Shown in pieces: positions 2,249-35,541 of a DNA stretch of 64,000 nucleotides. A model generated the notes under the pieces. The model saw nothing but the letters and a program-made list of their open reading frames with translations. It ran no database searches and was not told the origin of the DNA. Position numbers and translations under genes: made by a program. The number at the start of each line of letters is the position of its first letter. The stretch's first letter is position 1. The stretch comes from Ruminococcus sp. (lineage in GTDB: Bacteria > Bacillota > Clostridia > Oscillospirales > Ruminococcaceae). The stretch spans positions 62,001 to 126,000 of the forward strand of contig NZ_JAFYYT010000007.1 in the NCBI RefSeq assembly GCF_017549005.1, given 5' to 3'.

Positions 2249-4345
2249 TTATACATTGTAGATAATCTCGGAATATGCAGGTATAGGCCACTTAGCCGCA
2301 GGCATATTGAGCTCAATCTCGTCGGCAATGCTTCTCATTATATCCATTTCGGCAAGAACCACATCATGGAAGAACTCTGCCTGTTTCTGAATGCCTGAAA
2401 CTGAATTTGCTTCTGTAACACGAGTTTCAAGGCGCTCTATGGACTCATAGAAACGGTCCGCAAGCTCATTGAGCTTCTTTGCTATCTTTTCATCTGTATT
2501 GCAGGTAAAGCCTATCTGCTTCTTTGTGGCAATAGCCTCGCAGAGAGACTGAACATAGTCCATAGTTGCAGGAAGAAGCTGCTTCCTTGCCATTTCTATC
2601 ATGGTACGTGCCTCGATACGAACAGTCTTTGAGTACTTTTCAAGGTGTATCTCTGTTCTTGCTGCTACCTCATTCTGGTTGTATATCTCAAACTTGCGGA
2701 ATATACGTACATTTTTCTCGTCCATATAATGAGGCATACAGTCAACAGTTGAAGCATAGTTGGGAAGGCCTCTTCTCTCAGCTTCCTTTACCCACTCCTC
2801 GGAGTATCCGTCACCGTTGAATATGATCCTTCTGTGCTCCTTGATAACTGTCTTTAACAGCTTTCTTACCTCTGCGTCAAAGTTATCCTTGCCCTTGAAC
2901 GGTTCAAGTATCTCAGTGAACTGGCTGAGCTCCTCGCAGACGATAGTATTTAGAAGAACATTGGGGCAGGCAATATTATCGGAAGAACCAACCATTCTGA
3001 ACTCAAAGCGGTTTCCTGTGAATGCAAACGGCGATGTTCTGTTTCTGTCAGTTGAATCCTTCGGGAATGACGGCAGAGCGTCAACGCCTATCTTGAAGGC
3101 ACGAGCCTTTGTCTTGTATACTGCGTCGTCCTCAATAGCCTGAAGAACCGCTTCAAGCTCTTCGCCGAGGAACATAGAGACGATAGCAGGAGGAGCTTCG
3201 TCCGCACCGAGTCTGTGATCGTTTCCGGCTGAAGCTGCAGAAAGTCTCATAAGATCGGCATACTCGTCAACACCCTTGATAAGGGCACAGAGTATGGTAA
3301 GGAACTGTAGATTATCCATAGGAGTATCGCCGGGGTCGAGAAGGTTCTGTCCGTCATTTGTGGACATAGACCAGTTATTGTGCTTACCCGAGCCGTTTAC
3401 TCCCTCAAAAGGCTTTTCATGGAGCAGACAAACAAGACCGTGCTTGAGAGCGACCTTTTCCATGACCTCCATAGCAAGCTCGTTCTGATCTGTTCCGAGA
3501 TTGGAAGTAGTAAATATAGGAGCCATTTCATGCTGTGCGGGAGCAACTTCGTTATGTTTTGTCTTTGAATAGATGCCCAGTTTCCAGAGTTCCTCGTCGA
3601 GCTCTGCCATATATGCGGCAACTCTCGGACGAAGATTTGCAAAGTACTGATCGTCGAGATCCTGTCCCTTTGGCGGCTTTGCACCGAAAAGAGTTCTTCC
3701 CGTAAGAATAAGATCCTCACGCTGATCGTACATCTTCTTATCTATAAGGAAATATTCCTGTTCAGCTCCGACTGTTGAAGTGACTCTTGTTACTCTGTCG
3801 TTTCCGAAAAGCTTGAGGAAACGAACGGCAGTCTTGCTGAGTGCCTGCATTGAACGGAGAAGAGGAGTCTTTTTGTCAAGAACTTCTCCTGTATATGAAA
3901 CAAATACTGTAGGGATATAAAGGCTTCCCTCTTTTACGAAGCAGTAGGATGTAGGATCCCATGCCGTATAGCCTCTTGCGGAGCTTGTTCTTCTGAGTCC
4001 GCCTGATGGGAAGGATGAAGCGTCAGGCTCGCCCTTTACAAGCGCCTTGCCTGAAAATTCCATTATCGCCATACCGTTCGGCGCCGGACTTATGAAGCAG
4101 TCATGCTTCTCGGCTGTTGAGCCCGTCATAGGCTGGAACCAATGAGTATAATGAGTTGCGCCTCTTTCGATAGCCCATTCCTTAATGGTGTTGGCTACAA
4201 CATCGGCAGTTTCCATATCTGCCAAAGGCTCGTTGTTCTGCATAGTTCTCTTGAGAGCTCTGTAGACATTCTTCGGCAGTCTCGTCTTCATGACATCTTC
4301 ATTGAACACATTGCAGGCAAAAATCTCGGGAATATTTACTGACAT
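2249..4345 (-). CDS. glnN: Glutamine synthetase, type III
   Basis: ATP-dependent condensation of ammonia with glutamate; cytosolic entry point of nitrogen assimilation. The length (698 aa) and the opening N-terminal region are those of GSIII, about 250 residues longer than GSI. The catalytic core includes GAEQEYFLID, NEVAPAQHEMAPIF and NGSGKHNNWSM, the last being the ATP and glutamate binding part. The start ATG is preceded by GAGGAGG, and a perfect-spacer promoter lies 59 nt upstream. Ruminococcus species typically rely on GSIII. It is a single-gene unit; no nitrogen operator could be recognised. Confidence 0.97.
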   Translation of the reverse strand: MSVNIPEIFACNVFNEDVMKTRLPKNVYRALKRTMQNNEPLADMETADVVANTIKEWAIERGATHYTHWFQPMTGSTAEKHDCFISPAPNGMAIMEFSGKALVKGEPDASSFPSGGLRRTSSARGYTAWDPTSYCFVKEGSLYIPTVFVSYTGEVLDKKTPLLRSMQALSKTAVRFLKLFGNDRVTRVTSTVGAEQEYFLIDKKMYDQREDLILTGRTLFGAKPPKGQDLDDQYFANLRPRVAAYMAELDEELWKLGIYSKTKHNEVAPAQHEMAPIFTTSNLGTDQNELAMEVMEKVALKHGLVCLLHEKPFEGVNGSGKHNNWSMSTNDGQNLLDPGDTPMDNLQFLTILCALIKGVDEYADLMRLSAASAGNDHRLGADEAPPAIVSMFLGEELEAVLQAIEDDAVYKTKARAFKIGVDALPSFPKDSTDRNRTSPFAFTGNRFEFRMVGSSDNIACPNVLLNTIVCEELSQFTEILEPFKGKDNFDAEVRKLLKTVIKEHRRIIFNGDGYSEEWVKEAERRGLPNYASTVDCMPHYMDEKNVRIFRKFEIYNQNEVAARTEIHLEKYSKTVRIEARTMIEMARKQLLPATMDYVQSLCEAIATKKQIGFTCNTDEKIAKKLNELADRFYESIERLETRVTEANSVSGIQKQAEFFHDVVLAEMDIMRSIADEIELNMPAAKWPIPAYSEIIYNV

Positions 4346-4403
4346 ATATTTTCCTCCTCAGAGCTTATTAGCTCATATAAACAATACTCCATCATAATTC
4401 AAA

Positions 4404-4432
4404 ATTATACCACTGAGCCGCCGCTTTGTCAA
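4404..4432 (-). promoter_or_regulatory. Promoter of glnN
   Basis: Minus strand TTGACA (4432-4427), 17-nt GC-rich spacer, TATAAT (4409-4404): both boxes match consensus perfectly. Confidence 0.88.
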
Positions 4433-4531
4433 TATATACTCTCTGCACTGAAACGTATTTTTCATCTTGGTACAAAATATCACAGTTATAGTCAGTAAAA
4501 AGGTGTATTCTGACAACAGCGGACATAAAAC

Positions 4532-4557
4532 TGCTGCCGTTCAGATGAACGGCAGCA
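4532..4557 (-). terminator. Terminator of the UDP-sugar dehydratase gene
   Basis: On the minus strand TGCTGCCGTT and its complement form a 10-bp stem with a 6-nt loop, followed by GTTTTAT, 25 nt after the stop codon. Confidence 0.75.
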
Positions 4558-4581
4558 AACTGATATTTTTGTATTTTTTCA

Positions 4582-6519
4582 TTAAGCCGACTCAACAACA
4601 CTTTCGAGCTTTTCGTTTCTGAGCTCCTTGGTGTTGAACTCTTCGGGAGTCGTAAATGTAGGTACCATTGAATGAAGCGCAAATACTGCAAGGGCTTCGT
4701 CATTTTTCAATGCCGCGTTACGAAGGTCGTTCAGACGCATCGGGAATGAAGCTTCATCTATCTCAATCTGCTTACCGATAAAGATAAGCTTATTTGATGT
4801 CTTCTGAAGTCCTTCTTCATTCATTAGAAGCTCTTCCTTTATCTTTTCACCCGGACGAAGTCCTGTAAATACGATATCAACATCCTTGTAAGGCTCTTTT
4901 CCGTACATACGGATGAGATTTTCCGCAAGAGTAACTATCTTCACGGGCTTGCCCATGTCCAGTACGAATATCTCGCCGCCGTTTGCAATAGCAGCAGCTT
5001 CCATTACAAGATTGACCGCCTCAGGTATAGTCATAAAGTAACGGATTATATCAGGGTGAGTAACAGTTACAGGTCTTCCCTGCTCTATCTGCTTCTTGAA
5101 AAGCGGTATCACAGAGCCGTTTGAACCGAGAACATTGCCGAAACGTGTGGTCACAAACTCTGTTCTGCCCTCTTTCTGCTGTGCGAGATACTGAACTATC
5201 ATTTCGCAGCATCTCTTTGAAGCTCCCATGACATTTGTGGGATTTACAGCCTTATCCGTGGATATCATCACGAACTTCTCAACATTGTGGAACTGTGCAA
5301 GGGTCGCAACATTGAAAGTTCCGATGATATTATTCTTTATAGCCTCCATAGGCGAAGATTCCATAAGCGGAACGTGTTTATGAGCAGCTGCATGGAAAAC
5401 AACATCGGGCTTGTATGTACAGAATATCTGATTCATGCGGTAATAATCCCTTACCGAAGCAATGAGAGTCACAAGTGAAAGCTCGTCGCCGTACTCCATT
5501 CTGAGCTCCTGCTCGATATCGTAAGCATTATTCTCGTAGATATCCACAATTATAATGCGGCTCGGGTCGTACTTTGCTATCTGTCTCACAAGCTCGGAGC
5601 CTATACTTCCGCCGCCGCCTGTAACCATGCAGACCTTGCCGCCGATAAAGCTCCTGATATCCGTGTTATCAAACTTTATCGGATCACGGCCGAGAAGATC
5701 CTCGACCTTTATATCACGTATCTGATGGATTATAGTCTTGTTCTCGTCGTCAAACACAAGGTTTCCGATAAAAGGAACTACCTTTACGGGCACATCTGTT
5801 TCAGTACATATGTCAAGGATACGCTTGCGCTCGTCCTCAAGACATGACGGGATAGCAAACAATATCTGCTCAATTCTCTTGTCTTTGACGAATTTGCTGA
5901 TCTCAGCCGTAGTTCCGATGATCTCGACACCTTCTATTTCAGTGCCTATCTTATCGCGGTCATCGTCAATGATGCAAACAGGATCAAAGACAGTTACCTG
6001 CTTATCATCCGAATAGGGAGAATGCTTTGCATTGTATATCTCTTTCAGGATAGTCCTGCAGGCTTGTCCGCCGCCGATGACCATTGTGCGCTTGCCTTTC
6101 AGTGATTTACTGTCGGATATGGTTATCATCGTTCTCTTGAAAAGATAACGGAACAGGCAGATCGCACATATGAAGATCCCCATGTGGAACAGCGAGAATG
6201 CAGGATAGAATGATTCATCTATCATATAAACTATCGCAGACGAAGCAACAATACCTATTACTGCTCCGTACACACAGCTAAGATAATCCCTGCGGTTAAA
6301 ATATCTCCAGAGCTTGCTGTACGCGCCTGCTATCATCAGACCGCCGATACAGCACATCGAACTCACAGCGATCAGAATAACAAGAGCCGCTTCTTCAATG
6401 TCAAGTCCCCGGAAAGAGAGTATAAAATTAGCGATAAGTGCCGATACCCCAACAAAAAAAACGTCCGCTCCTGCAAGAATCAACTTTCTGATCTTAAAAA
6501 TACCGAGAAGTTTCTTCAT
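4582..6519 (-). CDS. Membrane UDP-N-acetylhexosamine 4,6-dehydratase (WbpM/PglF/CapD family)
   Basis: Makes a 4-keto-6-deoxy UDP-sugar for surface glycans. There are four predicted N-terminal membrane segments (about residues 13-35, 43-66, 83-100, 108-125), a first Rossmann fold of the CoA-binding type (VIGGGQACR near 148), and a catalytic SDR domain with TGGGGSIGSE at 300-309. The usual SDR YxxxK is MxxxK (Met431, Lys435, in NVMGASKR), which is the hallmark of the large WbpM/PglF dehydratases. The start is supported by GGAGGG. It stands alone, not in a polysaccharide cluster, suggesting a housekeeping sugar such as bacillosamine-type or QuiNAc precursors; the exact product is unknown. Confidence 0.92.
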   Translation of the reverse strand: MKKLLGIFKIRKLILAGADVFFVGVSALIANFILSFRGLDIEEAALVILIAVSSMCCIGGLMIAGAYSKLWRYFNRRDYLSCVYGAVIGIVASSAIVYMIDESFYPAFSLFHMGIFICAICLFRYLFKRTMITISDSKSLKGKRTMVIGGGQACRTILKEIYNAKHSPYSDDKQVTVFDPVCIIDDDRDKIGTEIEGVEIIGTTAEISKFVKDKRIEQILFAIPSCLEDERKRILDICTETDVPVKVVPFIGNLVFDDENKTIIHQIRDIKVEDLLGRDPIKFDNTDIRSFIGGKVCMVTGGGGSIGSELVRQIAKYDPSRIIIVDIYENNAYDIEQELRMEYGDELSLVTLIASVRDYYRMNQIFCTYKPDVVFHAAAHKHVPLMESSPMEAIKNNIIGTFNVATLAQFHNVEKFVMISTDKAVNPTNVMGASKRCCEMIVQYLAQQKEGRTEFVTTRFGNVLGSNGSVIPLFKKQIEQGRPVTVTHPDIIRYFMTIPEAVNLVMEAAAIANGGEIFVLDMGKPVKIVTLAENLIRMYGKEPYKDVDIVFTGLRPGEKIKEELLMNEEGLQKTSNKLIFIGKQIEIDEASFPMRLNDLRNAALKNDEALAVFALHSMVPTFTTPEEFNTKELRNEKLESVVESA

Positions 6520-27451: not shown

Positions 27452-27495
27452 GGTACGATCAATGCCTCGTGATTCGAGCTTTCGCTCTGTACCGA

Positions 27496-27671
27496 TAAAC
27501 GGCAGGTTTCCTGACTAACGGATAGTAACGCTGTATTCCGCCTTCCCGATTTCTCAGTGGCTGCAACATATGCATGGATACCGCTCTCCGCTCACAGTGA
27601 CGAGATCGCGCGGGACTTTCACCCGCTTCCCTTTTAACTCCCCTGTACATAAGCACGAGGAGCACCGTTTA
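27496..27671 (-). promoter_or_regulatory. Cobalamin (B12) riboswitch aptamer
   Basis: The minus strand has the conserved elements in order: closing helix P1 (TAAACGG with CCGTTTA), GGGAAGCGGGTGAAAGTCCC, GCCACTG before the P6 region, the GGGAAGGC segment, and the B12 box core GTCAGGAAACCTGCC near the 3' end. It precedes cbiK and is followed by two terminators, so coenzyme B12 binding should switch off the six-gene operon. Confidence 0.95.
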
Positions 27672-27707
27672 CCTTATTTGATTATAATATTCATGAATAC
27701 ATGGACT

Positions 27708-34120: not shown

Positions 34121-34150
34121 TAAAAACAAAGCCCCGACTCACGTCGGGGC
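34121..34150 (-). terminator. Terminator of the large structured RNA
   Basis: Minus strand GCCCCGAC-GTGA-GTCGGGGC (34150-34131, GNRA loop) followed by TTTGTTTTT. No coding gene ends before it, which points to a non-coding transcript. Confidence 0.8.
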
Positions 34151-34740
34151 AGTTTGTCATTATTTAATTTTTAAAGCGACTTTCATCACTTAGCTAAATT
34201 ACCCTTTGGACTCACCCTTTCGGATCAGATTTTAAATGTGTACCTCGTTTTCACTGTACATCATTCCTTTATATAAAGTAATCAAGCAATTCAAAAATTA
34301 CTCCATCGGAATCACCTATAAAATTGTATTTGTCCGAAATCTCGAACATCATGCAAGTTCATAAAGCAATAACCTATTTTCTCATTGGACTCAACCTTTA
34401 CTAAAGAATTTTTCGCAATATATCTAAAGACTTATTGTCGAAATTTCAGATAACTCTGTATCCAAATTTTCTTCGCATGAAGCCGTTTAGATCAGCAAAC
34501 GTCAGCCTCATAATTGAATTGCCAAGCCTTTTTGAGCTCTTTTCAATGGAACAAGCCCGAAGCCTATATTCCCTCTTAATGAAATCCAATTACTCAGCAA
34601 GCCCGCCGGCTTCACGCTGCTGTGCGAACTTTCCTTCCATTGGACTCACTCTCCCTTCCGCGTATATTCATTTACATTGAGGTCACCCTCAGTCCAAGTA
34701 AATGCAGCTCGGATTGCTCTCATGAGCTTTCCTTTTCCTT
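34126..34740 (-). ncRNA. Candidate large structured RNA, about 610 nt
   Basis: The stretch has a minus-strand promoter and an intrinsic terminator but no conserved coding frame. Local hairpins are dense: TGAGG-GTGA-CCTCA inside CATTTAC...GTAAATG (about 34703-34669), AAGCC-GGCG-GGCTT with flanking CAGC/GCTG (34619-34593), CGTTT...AAACG, CTTC-ATGC-GAAG, AAATTTGGATA...TATCTGAAATTT, GAAC...GTTC, GTAAT...ATTAC, TGTAC...GTACA and ATCC-GAAA-GGGT. A 15-nt motif like AGGGTGAGTCCAATGG recurs about four times, and its AGTCCAA can pair with a single TTGGACT near the 5' end. Size and style recall ornate large RNAs such as ROOL or GOLLD, but I cannot confirm membership. Alternative: remains of decayed small genes, since short frames such as the one at 34352-34269 look partly protein-like. 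Confidence 0.55.
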
Positions 34741-34746
34741 GATTAT

Positions 34747-34775
34747 ATATTACCATACTTTGTGTGAAAAGTCAA
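34747..34775 (-). promoter_or_regulatory. Promoter of the large structured RNA
   Basis: Minus strand TTGACT (34775-34770), 17 nt, TAATAT (34752-34747). Confidence 0.7.
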
Positions 34776-34883
34776 TAGAAATAATCGCTCTATCACAATA
34801 TTTTCATGCAAATCGGTATATCTAACAAAGAATCAAGCTATCAATTGTTTAATATCACAATAATATCTTCATGTATATTCCTC

Positions 34884-34912: not shown

Positions 34913-34952
34913 ATAGCTATAGAAAAGGCTTTTGCCGGATTGGAGAATGAAT

Positions 34953-35255
34953 ATGTCCGAAATGAATGAATATACTCCCGACTTATTTGAACTGATAGAC
35001 GAGGAAGGCAACAAGAAGCAGTTTGAGCTTTTCGACGCAGCAGAAATTGAGGGCGAGCAGTATTATGCCATGCTCCCTGCTGTTGAGGATGAAGATTTTC
35101 TCGATTCAGACTGCGACCTTGTTATACTCAAATCTATAGAAGAAGACGGTGAAGAGATACTTGCATCAATAGATGACGATGACGAGTTTGAAATGGTATC
35201 GAAATTCTTCCTTGAACGCCTTGACGGCATCATGGACGACAGCTTTGACGACTAA
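34953..35255 (+). CDS. DUF1292 (YrzB-like) family protein
   Basis: 100 aa, very acidic (Asp/Glu-rich, C-terminus DGIMDDSFDD). The pattern LFELIDEEGNKKQFELFDAAEIEGEQYYAMLPA followed by LVILKSIEEDGEEILASIDDDDEFEMVSKFF is that of DUF1292, a small cytosolic Firmicute family of unknown function often found near the yrrK/mltG region. Start 34953 is chosen because TTGGAG lies 7 nt ahead; the ATG at 34947 is too near that site. It is followed by a possible 6S RNA unit. Confidence 0.88.
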   Translation: MSEMNEYTPDLFELIDEEGNKKQFELFDAAEIEGEQYYAMLPAVEDEDFLDSDCDLVILKSIEEDGEEILASIDDDDEFEMVSKFFLERLDGIMDDSFDD

Positions 35256-35328: not shown

Positions 35329-35541
35329 AGAAAAGAAAAAAAGCAAAATTTCTGCCTTGTGCGGGTAATTATAGTTTTTATAATCCAACACATAATTCAA
35401 GGGAATTCGTCTCCGTATGTGGACTGCAGACCTCCCGCCCTGCGGAAGAAGGGAGCGAGAAGCATAAGGGCGTTTACCCACCTGCTTAGTGCGGGTTTTA
35501 TGCACTATATGACGGCAAGGCGGATTTTTATACTCAAATGG
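35329..35541 (+). ncRNA. Candidate 6S RNA (SsrS-like)
   Basis: About 200 nt between a promoter and a terminator with no coding frame. The ends form a closing helix: 35351-35359 (TCTGCCTTG) pairs with 35516-35524 (CAAGGCGGA), extended by AAAA/TTTT. Inside are CACATA...TATGTG, CTCCC...GGGAG with CCGC-CCT-GCGG on top, and GCATAA...TTATGC. The overall plan and the stretch GAGCGAGAAGC resemble the 6S RNA that sequesters sigma-A RNA polymerase, but several local hairpins are stronger than expected for the simple rod with a bubble, so another family (for example raiA-type) is possible. Confidence 0.5.

Follow-up and report, generated by a model that had tools for sequence, protein, structure and literature searches.

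What is encoded on the minus strand of a Ruminococcus sp. contig (NZ_JAFYYT010000007.1), in a stretch of slightly more than 600 bases where the original prediction saw a large, ornate, free-standing RNA? The prediction itself was borne out, since promoter, terminator, and fold are all conserved in relatives, and the question thus becomes what such an RNA would do. The features of the locus are collected in Table 1, with coordinates that refer to the window, i.e., the whole stretch of 64,000 nucleotides that was analyzed. Comparison with related genomes suggests that the role of this conserved, folded RNA is to catch or sense ribosomes rather than to encode a protein.

Table 1. Features of the RNA locus and its surroundings, in window coordinates.
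Feature	Position	Strand	Basis or remark
RNA gene, ~610-620 nt	34121..34740	-	conserved promoter and terminator; 5′ end inferred from −10 box
Promoter TTGACT-17 nt-TAATAT, extended −10 (TG)	34747..34775	-	sequence; conserved in relatives
Conserved element TTgt...cgAAaT..Ac.AAAa, 5′ of −35 box	34801..34828	-	information content, 97 regions aligned on −35 box
P1 hairpin, near-invariant TTGG in internal loop	34660..34708	-	distal stem: 13 double events, null maximum 5
Motif copy 1, AGGGAGAGTGAGTCCAATG, Shine-Dalgarno-like plus start codon	34638..34656	-	sequence
ORF1, 16 codons, MEGKFAQQREAGGLAE	34590..34640	-	exactly 16 codons in 65/92 rows
Central long-range domain	34478..34614	-	34614-34607/34485-34478, 34606-34596/34507-34495, 34593-34583/34520-34510
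Hairpin GGGAATATAGGC...GCTTGTTCC	34549..34571	-	18 double events, null maximum 4
Motif copy 2, GTAAAGGTTGAGTCCAATG	34383..34401	-	sequence
ORF2, ATG AGA AAA TAG (MRK stop)	34374..34385	-	stop position mostly kept in relatives, stop type changing
Motif copy 3, TTTATAGGTGATTCCGATG	34304..34322	-	sequence
ORF3, ATG GAG TAA (ME stop)	34298..34306	-	sequence
ORF4, GTG start, VKTRYTFKI stop	34225..34254	-	AAAGGA at 34270-34265 is a different, weaker site
Last motif copy, CGAAAGGGTGAGTCCAAAG, without start codon	34204..34222	-	sequence
GAAA-loop hairpin AAGTGAT-GAAA-GTCGCTT	34174..34191	-	8 double events, null maximum 3
Intrinsic terminator, GTGA loop and T tract	34121..34151	-	sequence; covariation
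DUF1292 gene, divergent neighbor	34947..35255	+	Pfam PF06949
6S RNA gene, in syntenic block	35346..35530	+	Rfam RF00013, 68.3 bits

Judged from its sequence, the region is an independent RNA gene, complete with promoter and terminator, and we infer that it is transcribed. The promoter with a 17-nt spacer was confirmed: on the minus strand the −35 box, TTGACT, occupies 34775-34770 and TAATAT, preceded by TG, ends at 34747, while a second promoter match, likewise with a 17-nt spacer, overlaps the first. All 92 aligned rows carry a TTGAC box where expected, TTGAC being what the script searched for. In an alignment of 97 upstream regions, which was built by finding the −35 and −10 boxes so that those letters are fixed by construction, the CTA before the −35 box and the G of the TG before the −10 box were not fixed by the search and are highly conserved. 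The same regions share the element TTgt...cgAAaT..Ac.AAAa some 25-50 bases 5′ of the −35 box, between the RNA promoter and the divergent DUF1292 gene, and it may be a regulator site common to both genes. At the other end, the terminator with its GTGA loop proved to be as predicted (GCCCCGAC-GTGA-GTCGGGGC, then TTTGTTTTT), and its stem covaries (26 double substitutions in a tree-aware test, null maximum 4).

The minimum free energy of the RNA is −175.6 kcal/mol (z = −4.2), and none of 20 dinucleotide shuffles was equally stable. Covariation had been proposed as a check on the prediction, and we performed it in a tree-aware manner, with substitutions placed on the tree and double substitutions that keep pairing being counted, also for the null. 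The alignment comprised 92 rows, ten fragmentary, expanded, or weak ones (L054, L060, L076, L082, L098, L106, L107, L102, L053, and L046) having been left out. Several helices covary, and the fold is supported accordingly. In addition to the hairpins in Table 1, this applies to the outer (34614-34607/34485-34478; 13 double events, null maximum 4) and inner (34593-34583/34520-34510; 37 and 11) helices of the central domain, whereas the middle one (34606-34596/34507-34495; 3 and 5) has no covariation support. Pairing at 34477-34470/34428-34421 (listed in trimmed-column numbers: 301-359) is marginal, with 2 double events and a null maximum of 2, and the helices 171-281, 158-388, 322-333, and 341-351 (trimmed-column numbers) display no excess of double events. 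In the alignment that the tool itself produced, pairing holds in 91.1% of cells, compared to 30-43% with the 3′ strand slid, for a structure that was itself derived from the same RNA family. A stricter all-pairs covariation test left just two pairs below the cut, with E = 0.00 and 0.17.

Its neighbors mark the RNA as a unit of its own. They were counted in 80 longer loci of the genus, some of which are cut by contig ends; the shorter loci to which most of L009-L037, the nearest relatives of the window, belong fall outside this count. The DUF1292 gene is present in 54 of the 80 loci, typically divergent and directly 5′ of the RNA, and in 44 of 59 further, partly overlapping loci, whereas a gene of the MgsA/RarA family occurs in 44 of the 80, on the opposite strand in 43 of them and typically directly downstream. 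No conserved downstream gene on the same strand was seen in most of the 80 loci. With divergent and convergent neighbors, the RNA is thus not a leader. The location upstream of htrA that was originally reported is shared by some relatives only, htrA lying downstream in just 5 of the 80 loci; a leader of htrA, or any cis-regulatory leader or riboswitch, was therefore rejected, given the differing synteny, the conserved terminator, and a downstream gene that is mostly on the opposite strand. 6S RNA was found in 5 of 7 genus loci scanned and in 7/15, 6/17, and 6/20 further loci, many of which span ~3 kb or less, so that 6S may sit past their ends. Pairing between the two RNAs was considered and discarded, the 6S RNA of the window lacking GGACTC and containing GGACT once.

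We then compared the RNA with known families. At gathering scores, Rfam reports for the whole window just a cobalamin riboswitch (27484-27684, minus strand, 107 bits), 6S RNA, and tRNAs. Between 33900 and 35000, six matches were obtained at E ≤ 5, all below gathering scores and none credible, and the relatives L245 and L206 yielded just 6S RNA and sub-threshold matches to other families at E ≤ 1. The RNA is not itself a 6S member, as the sole RF00013 match in the window is the neighbor. The initial likeness to ROOL and GOLLD is one of size only: the Rfam check, which included ROOL, GOLLD, OLE, and HEARO, matched none of these families in the window or in the two relatives, and membership was rejected. 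We are therefore dealing with a large conserved RNA family that no Rfam 15 model recognizes here. A covariance model of the 5′ third (R1), for which 47 relatives supplied the sequences, matched 99 of 125 genus genomes and 65 of the 68 near-complete ones at E ≤ 0.001, up to 47 of the 99 matches being expected by construction. BLASTN matched 123 of the 125 genomes at E ≤ 1, many of them trivially.

The four copies of the repeated motif lie where they had been reported. Their consensus is AGGnTGAGTCCRATG, with a core of TGAGTCC or TGATTCC after AGG or AAAGG, and RATG comes next in all copies but the last; in copy 1, GTCC does not vary at any of its letters over 47 rows. The idea that the copies compete, through AGTCCAA, for a single TTGGACT did not hold. 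That partner is found at 34697-34691, ahead of all copies, but just its TTGG is nearly constant (45 of 47 aligned rows, two reading AAGG), with ACT, TCT, CTT, TTT, and others as the next letters, while the motif itself stays nearly fixed. Instead, the repeats look like a Shine-Dalgarno (SD) sequence with an AUG that opens a very short reading frame. For 289 motif copies, the mean pairing energy with the 3′ tail of 16S rRNA, for which an assumed sequence was used rather than the host's own, is −14.8 kcal/mol, whereas random places give −6.0 and 33 long ORFs in the window, taken at their best start, −11.1. The host's own tail was sought in the assemblies by rRNA searches and not found. Within the window, copy 1 (−22.5) and the last copy (−15.5) pair most strongly, copy 3 (−12.7) is middling, and copy 2 (−9.5 kcal/mol) falls below the gene average. 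TGAGTCCRATG occurs three times in the genome, two of them in the RNA, and is therefore not the organism's common ribosome site. The predicted accessibility of the motif does not exceed background (0.39 vs. 0.40, p = 0.47).

If the repeats were a plain RNA motif, there would be no reason for a stop to be kept in one frame while the letters change, yet that is what is observed. Among 104 distinct 15-base contexts of non-first copies from the genus, 67 hold an ORF of at most three codons, compared to 6 and 11 in the other frames. The 38 distinct contexts from other genera comprise 33 two-codon ORFs (0 and 0 in the other frames), or 35 when up to three codons are allowed (0 and 3). Both sets were retrieved independently of the stop codon and constitute the unbiased test, because a larger set, in which 65 of 75 contexts are two-codon ORFs (0 and 2 in the other frames), contains loci fetched by a pattern requiring a stop-like codon. 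Kinship is handled in these frame counts through distinct contexts only, whereas the double-event counts and the stop counts at copy 2 use the tree. When the sequence downstream of the copies after the first was shuffled, the share with an ORF of at most four codons fell from 72% of 138 to 31% (maximum 40% in 200 runs). At copy 2, ATG AGA is present in 72 of the 92 rows and missing from 20. Three-codon ORFs account for 53 of the 72, ending in TAG (22), TGA (16), or TAA (15), and the remainder are 7 seven-codon, 7 two-codon, and 1 four-codon ORFs, plus 4 rows without a stop within nine codons. On the tree, the stop type changed at least 12 times and codon 3 at least 18 times, and TGG does not occur as codon 4 in any of the 77 distinct ATG-AGA contexts. 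All three stop codons interchange after motif copies. The early stop is thus conserved in frame, and frame-specifically so. In the window, two of the four start-codon sites are such start-stop ORFs (MRK and ME), ORF1 and ORF4 having 16 and nine codons, and it is these two that have the makeup of a two-codon minigene, i.e., SD, AUG, one to three further codons, and an in-frame stop.

Individual genus loci depart from this arrangement. At L053 (G013), positions 3974-5439 hold a version of ~1.5 kb in which the last motif and its 3′ surroundings occur four times, with spacings of 183, 183, and 368 bases. L099 and L100 contain four start-stop units (MER, MR, MR, and MGKN) with 52-53-base spacing at extracted-row positions 432-589, which is a local expansion of the start-stop array. 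L077 (G116:C117) carries the RNA twice on one contig, 3.8 kb apart and with identical scores, due to either a duplication or an assembly artefact.

Beyond the genus, relatives exist in other genera and, apparently, in one additional family, many of the loci having 6S RNA and a DUF1292 gene nearby. In 388 non-genus genomes of the family, the R1 model found 15 further matches at E ≤ 0.01, where the threshold lets ~4 be expected by chance, and 7 of these 15 loci have 6S RNA. A pattern resembling SD-AUG-one codon-stop is present in 23 of 396 family genomes, representing 9 of 126 genera, and 9 of the 23 have two to three copies per locus; the reversed pattern, used as a control, gave 0 matches in the same 396 genomes, and none of the 8 genus genomes among them matches this start-stop form from other genera. 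In the order, the motif-1 pattern (at most one mismatch) occurs in 10 of 394 genomes. Tandem copies such as GGAGTGAGTCCAATGGCATAA (AUG-GCA-stop) extend over a longer stretch in several family loci and in motif-1-pattern loci. At three of the ten matches in the order (L243, L244, and L245), which come from another family, 6S RNA and DUF1292 adjoin the motif, with one start-stop site at most, and the motif-1 match at L246 lies ahead of a protein-coding frame. A phylum sample gave 2 matches in 398, the own genome and a site that by eye is an ordinary gene start. By eye, L143 and L196 encode a different RNA of ~370 bases that has its own promoter and carries the motif, with ATG GGC TAG, at its start; neither of these 8-kb loci yielded a 6S match, and the gene after the L143 RNA resembles dihydrofolate reductase. 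A scan of viral contigs, limited to the motif form of other genera, returned 3 matches, which a rough manual calculation, for which the collection size was assumed, places no higher than chance; as a weak test, it disfavors a phage origin.

The reading that we favor, with a confidence somewhat short of even, is that of a free-standing folded RNA with several translation initiation sites, the later copies of which mostly stop after two to four codons, so that it would hold or sense initiating ribosomes. In such a scheme, 30S or 70S ribosomes would initiate at the SD-AUG sites, terminate almost at once, and tend to re-engage wherever SD pairing is strong. The RNA would thereby keep ribosomes idling, and its job would be to withdraw, or report on, initiating ribosomes upon changed conditions, acting as a decoy of translation start sites as 6S RNA does for promoters. 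Ribosome passage through ORF1 would, moreover, open the central long-range helix, providing a fold switch set by ribosome supply. More tentatively, we propose a new regulatory RNA class, which would trap or gauge ribosomes through a structured scaffold showing several start-stop ORFs behind SD sites; with 6S RNA beside it, decoys for RNA polymerase and for the ribosome would be found at one locus. The connection to the 6S decoy is one of position and analogy, and the RNA is perhaps the translational counterpart of its neighbor. Several observations weigh against ribosome holding, namely the background level of predicted accessibility, the pairing of copy 2 below the gene average, the single site at most in L243-L245, the lack of a 6S match in some of the loci scanned, the last window copy lacking an AUG, and the presence of start-stop ORFs at just two of the four start-codon sites.

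The same ORFs could instead belong to a polycistronic mRNA for tiny peptides, with ORF1 (16 amino acids) and ORF4 (~9 amino acids, MKMRYTFKI-like) as the products and the start-stop ORFs as translational couplers. The constant length of ORF1 (Table 1) fits this idea, but its changes do not: they are distributed over the codon positions as 43, 74, and 69 in codons 2-8, without a third-position excess, and as 22, 29, and 36 in codons 9-16, and several relatives keep the nucleotides while reading them in another frame. We therefore rejected ORF1 as a selected peptide, and read the selected feature as the act of initiating and stopping. ORF4 is more peptide-like and possibly an exception. K2 is frequently retained, as is a hydrophobic end, the start codon (ATG in 32 rows, GTG in 6, TTG in 2) varies at position 1 only, with 5, 0, and 0 changes at the three positions, and ORFs similar to MKxVRSYLKI or MKMFLSKLKI read cleanly in 7 of 8 checked loci from other genera. 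On the other hand, its changes by codon position are 31, 28, and 42, and the nine-codon form is found in just 40 of the 92 rows (40 of 100 by pattern), 4 of these apparently being chance frames. As products of two or three codons are also unlikely to be the purpose of the RNA, we regard a peptide-coding mRNA as unlikely.

A purely structural RNA in the manner of OLE, ROOL, or GOLLD, possibly multimeric or protein-binding and with the repeats as docking or kissing elements, would account for the size, fold, and covariation, and OLE RNA is reported to bind ribosomal protein bS21 via a mimic of the SD/anti-SD duplex (PMC12054373). The CCAATGG core of the repeats is nearly self-complementary, and pairs between copies 1 and 2 are kept after 73% of 44 changes (null maximum 55%), but with 0 double events in the tree-aware test. 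No Rfam family was matched, and the frame-specific stops after the repeats would be left unexplained; we consider this alternative slightly less probable than the peptide mRNA. We consider a ribosome-dependent cis sensor improbable, in which occupancy of the mini-ORFs would set RNA decay or folding while another part acts as the effector, e.g., by base pairing with mRNAs. For ORF1 (34640-34590), ribosome occupancy would unwind a large part of the 5′ strands of the central helices (34614-34583), and a two-codon mini-ORF is reported to act in cis (PMC8708949), but no effector segment was found, and in most of the 80 longer loci no conserved same-strand downstream gene was seen. A sponge for a CsrA-type protein, as in CsrB or RsmZ, is largely refuted and very improbable: GGA occurs within several copies (ATGGA) but is missing from copy 2 and the last copy of the window, and CsrA (PF02599) was found in 0 of 12 genus genomes searched, including the own genome. 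Finally, the decayed small genes that were initially offered as an alternative are refuted, since the frames 34431-34312 and 34352-34269, which seemed protein-like at first reading, match no Pfam or NCBIfam family (E ≤ 0.1) and the structure is conserved genus-wide with covariation.

If ribosome holding is correct, the RNA would act on the ribosome through initiation and immediate termination, a mode that we did not meet in the papers found, and gut and rumen bacteria would gain a translation-side partner of 6S RNA with a built-in reporter of initiating ribosomes. Regardless of mechanism, the RNA represents a large conserved family that the Rfam 15 models did not recognize here, and its in-frame stops simplify a functional test. 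Passages in PMC7580957 and PMC8632094 do not describe it, and a full-text literature search, which covers neither subscription papers nor preprints, gave no description of the RNA or of stand-alone tandem start-stop arrays among the titles and abstract openings listed.

Among known systems, ROOL and GOLLD are likewise large, ornate, and free-standing, but the RNA presented here has no Rfam match and lies in chromosomal synteny with 6S RNA and DUF1292. Lambda bar is of the two-codon minigene type. Other such minigenes, axe-txe mg2 and EHEC LEE1, share the SD, the AUG, one or two more codons, and the stop (PMC8708949). As reported there, ribosomes reinitiate without dissociating on two-codon minigenes with a strong SD, tRNA is depleted via peptidyl-tRNA release, and a mini-ORF can act in cis, possibly by stabilizing the RNA. 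The minigenes described in that paper precede a protein cistron, as part of a leader or a gene, whereas here they are part of a structured RNA without a downstream cistron and, in other genera, are often in tandem. OLE RNA resembles the present RNA in its size of ~600 nt and its occurrence in Bacillota, and is physically tied to the SD/anti-SD event of initiation through the duplex mimic noted above; according to PMC12054373, it binds a protein by way of an anti-SD mimic, whereas the RNA here displays SD-like sites together with start and stop codons. A further parallel is the neighbor itself, also a free-standing structured RNA, which is found next to the RNA in the window and in many relatives. 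6S RNA mimics promoters and serves as a decoy for RNA polymerase. The RNA described here, which has no match to the 6S model, would work alike if the decoy hypothesis holds, except that it would mimic start sites instead of promoters, and that its target would be the ribosome rather than RNA polymerase.
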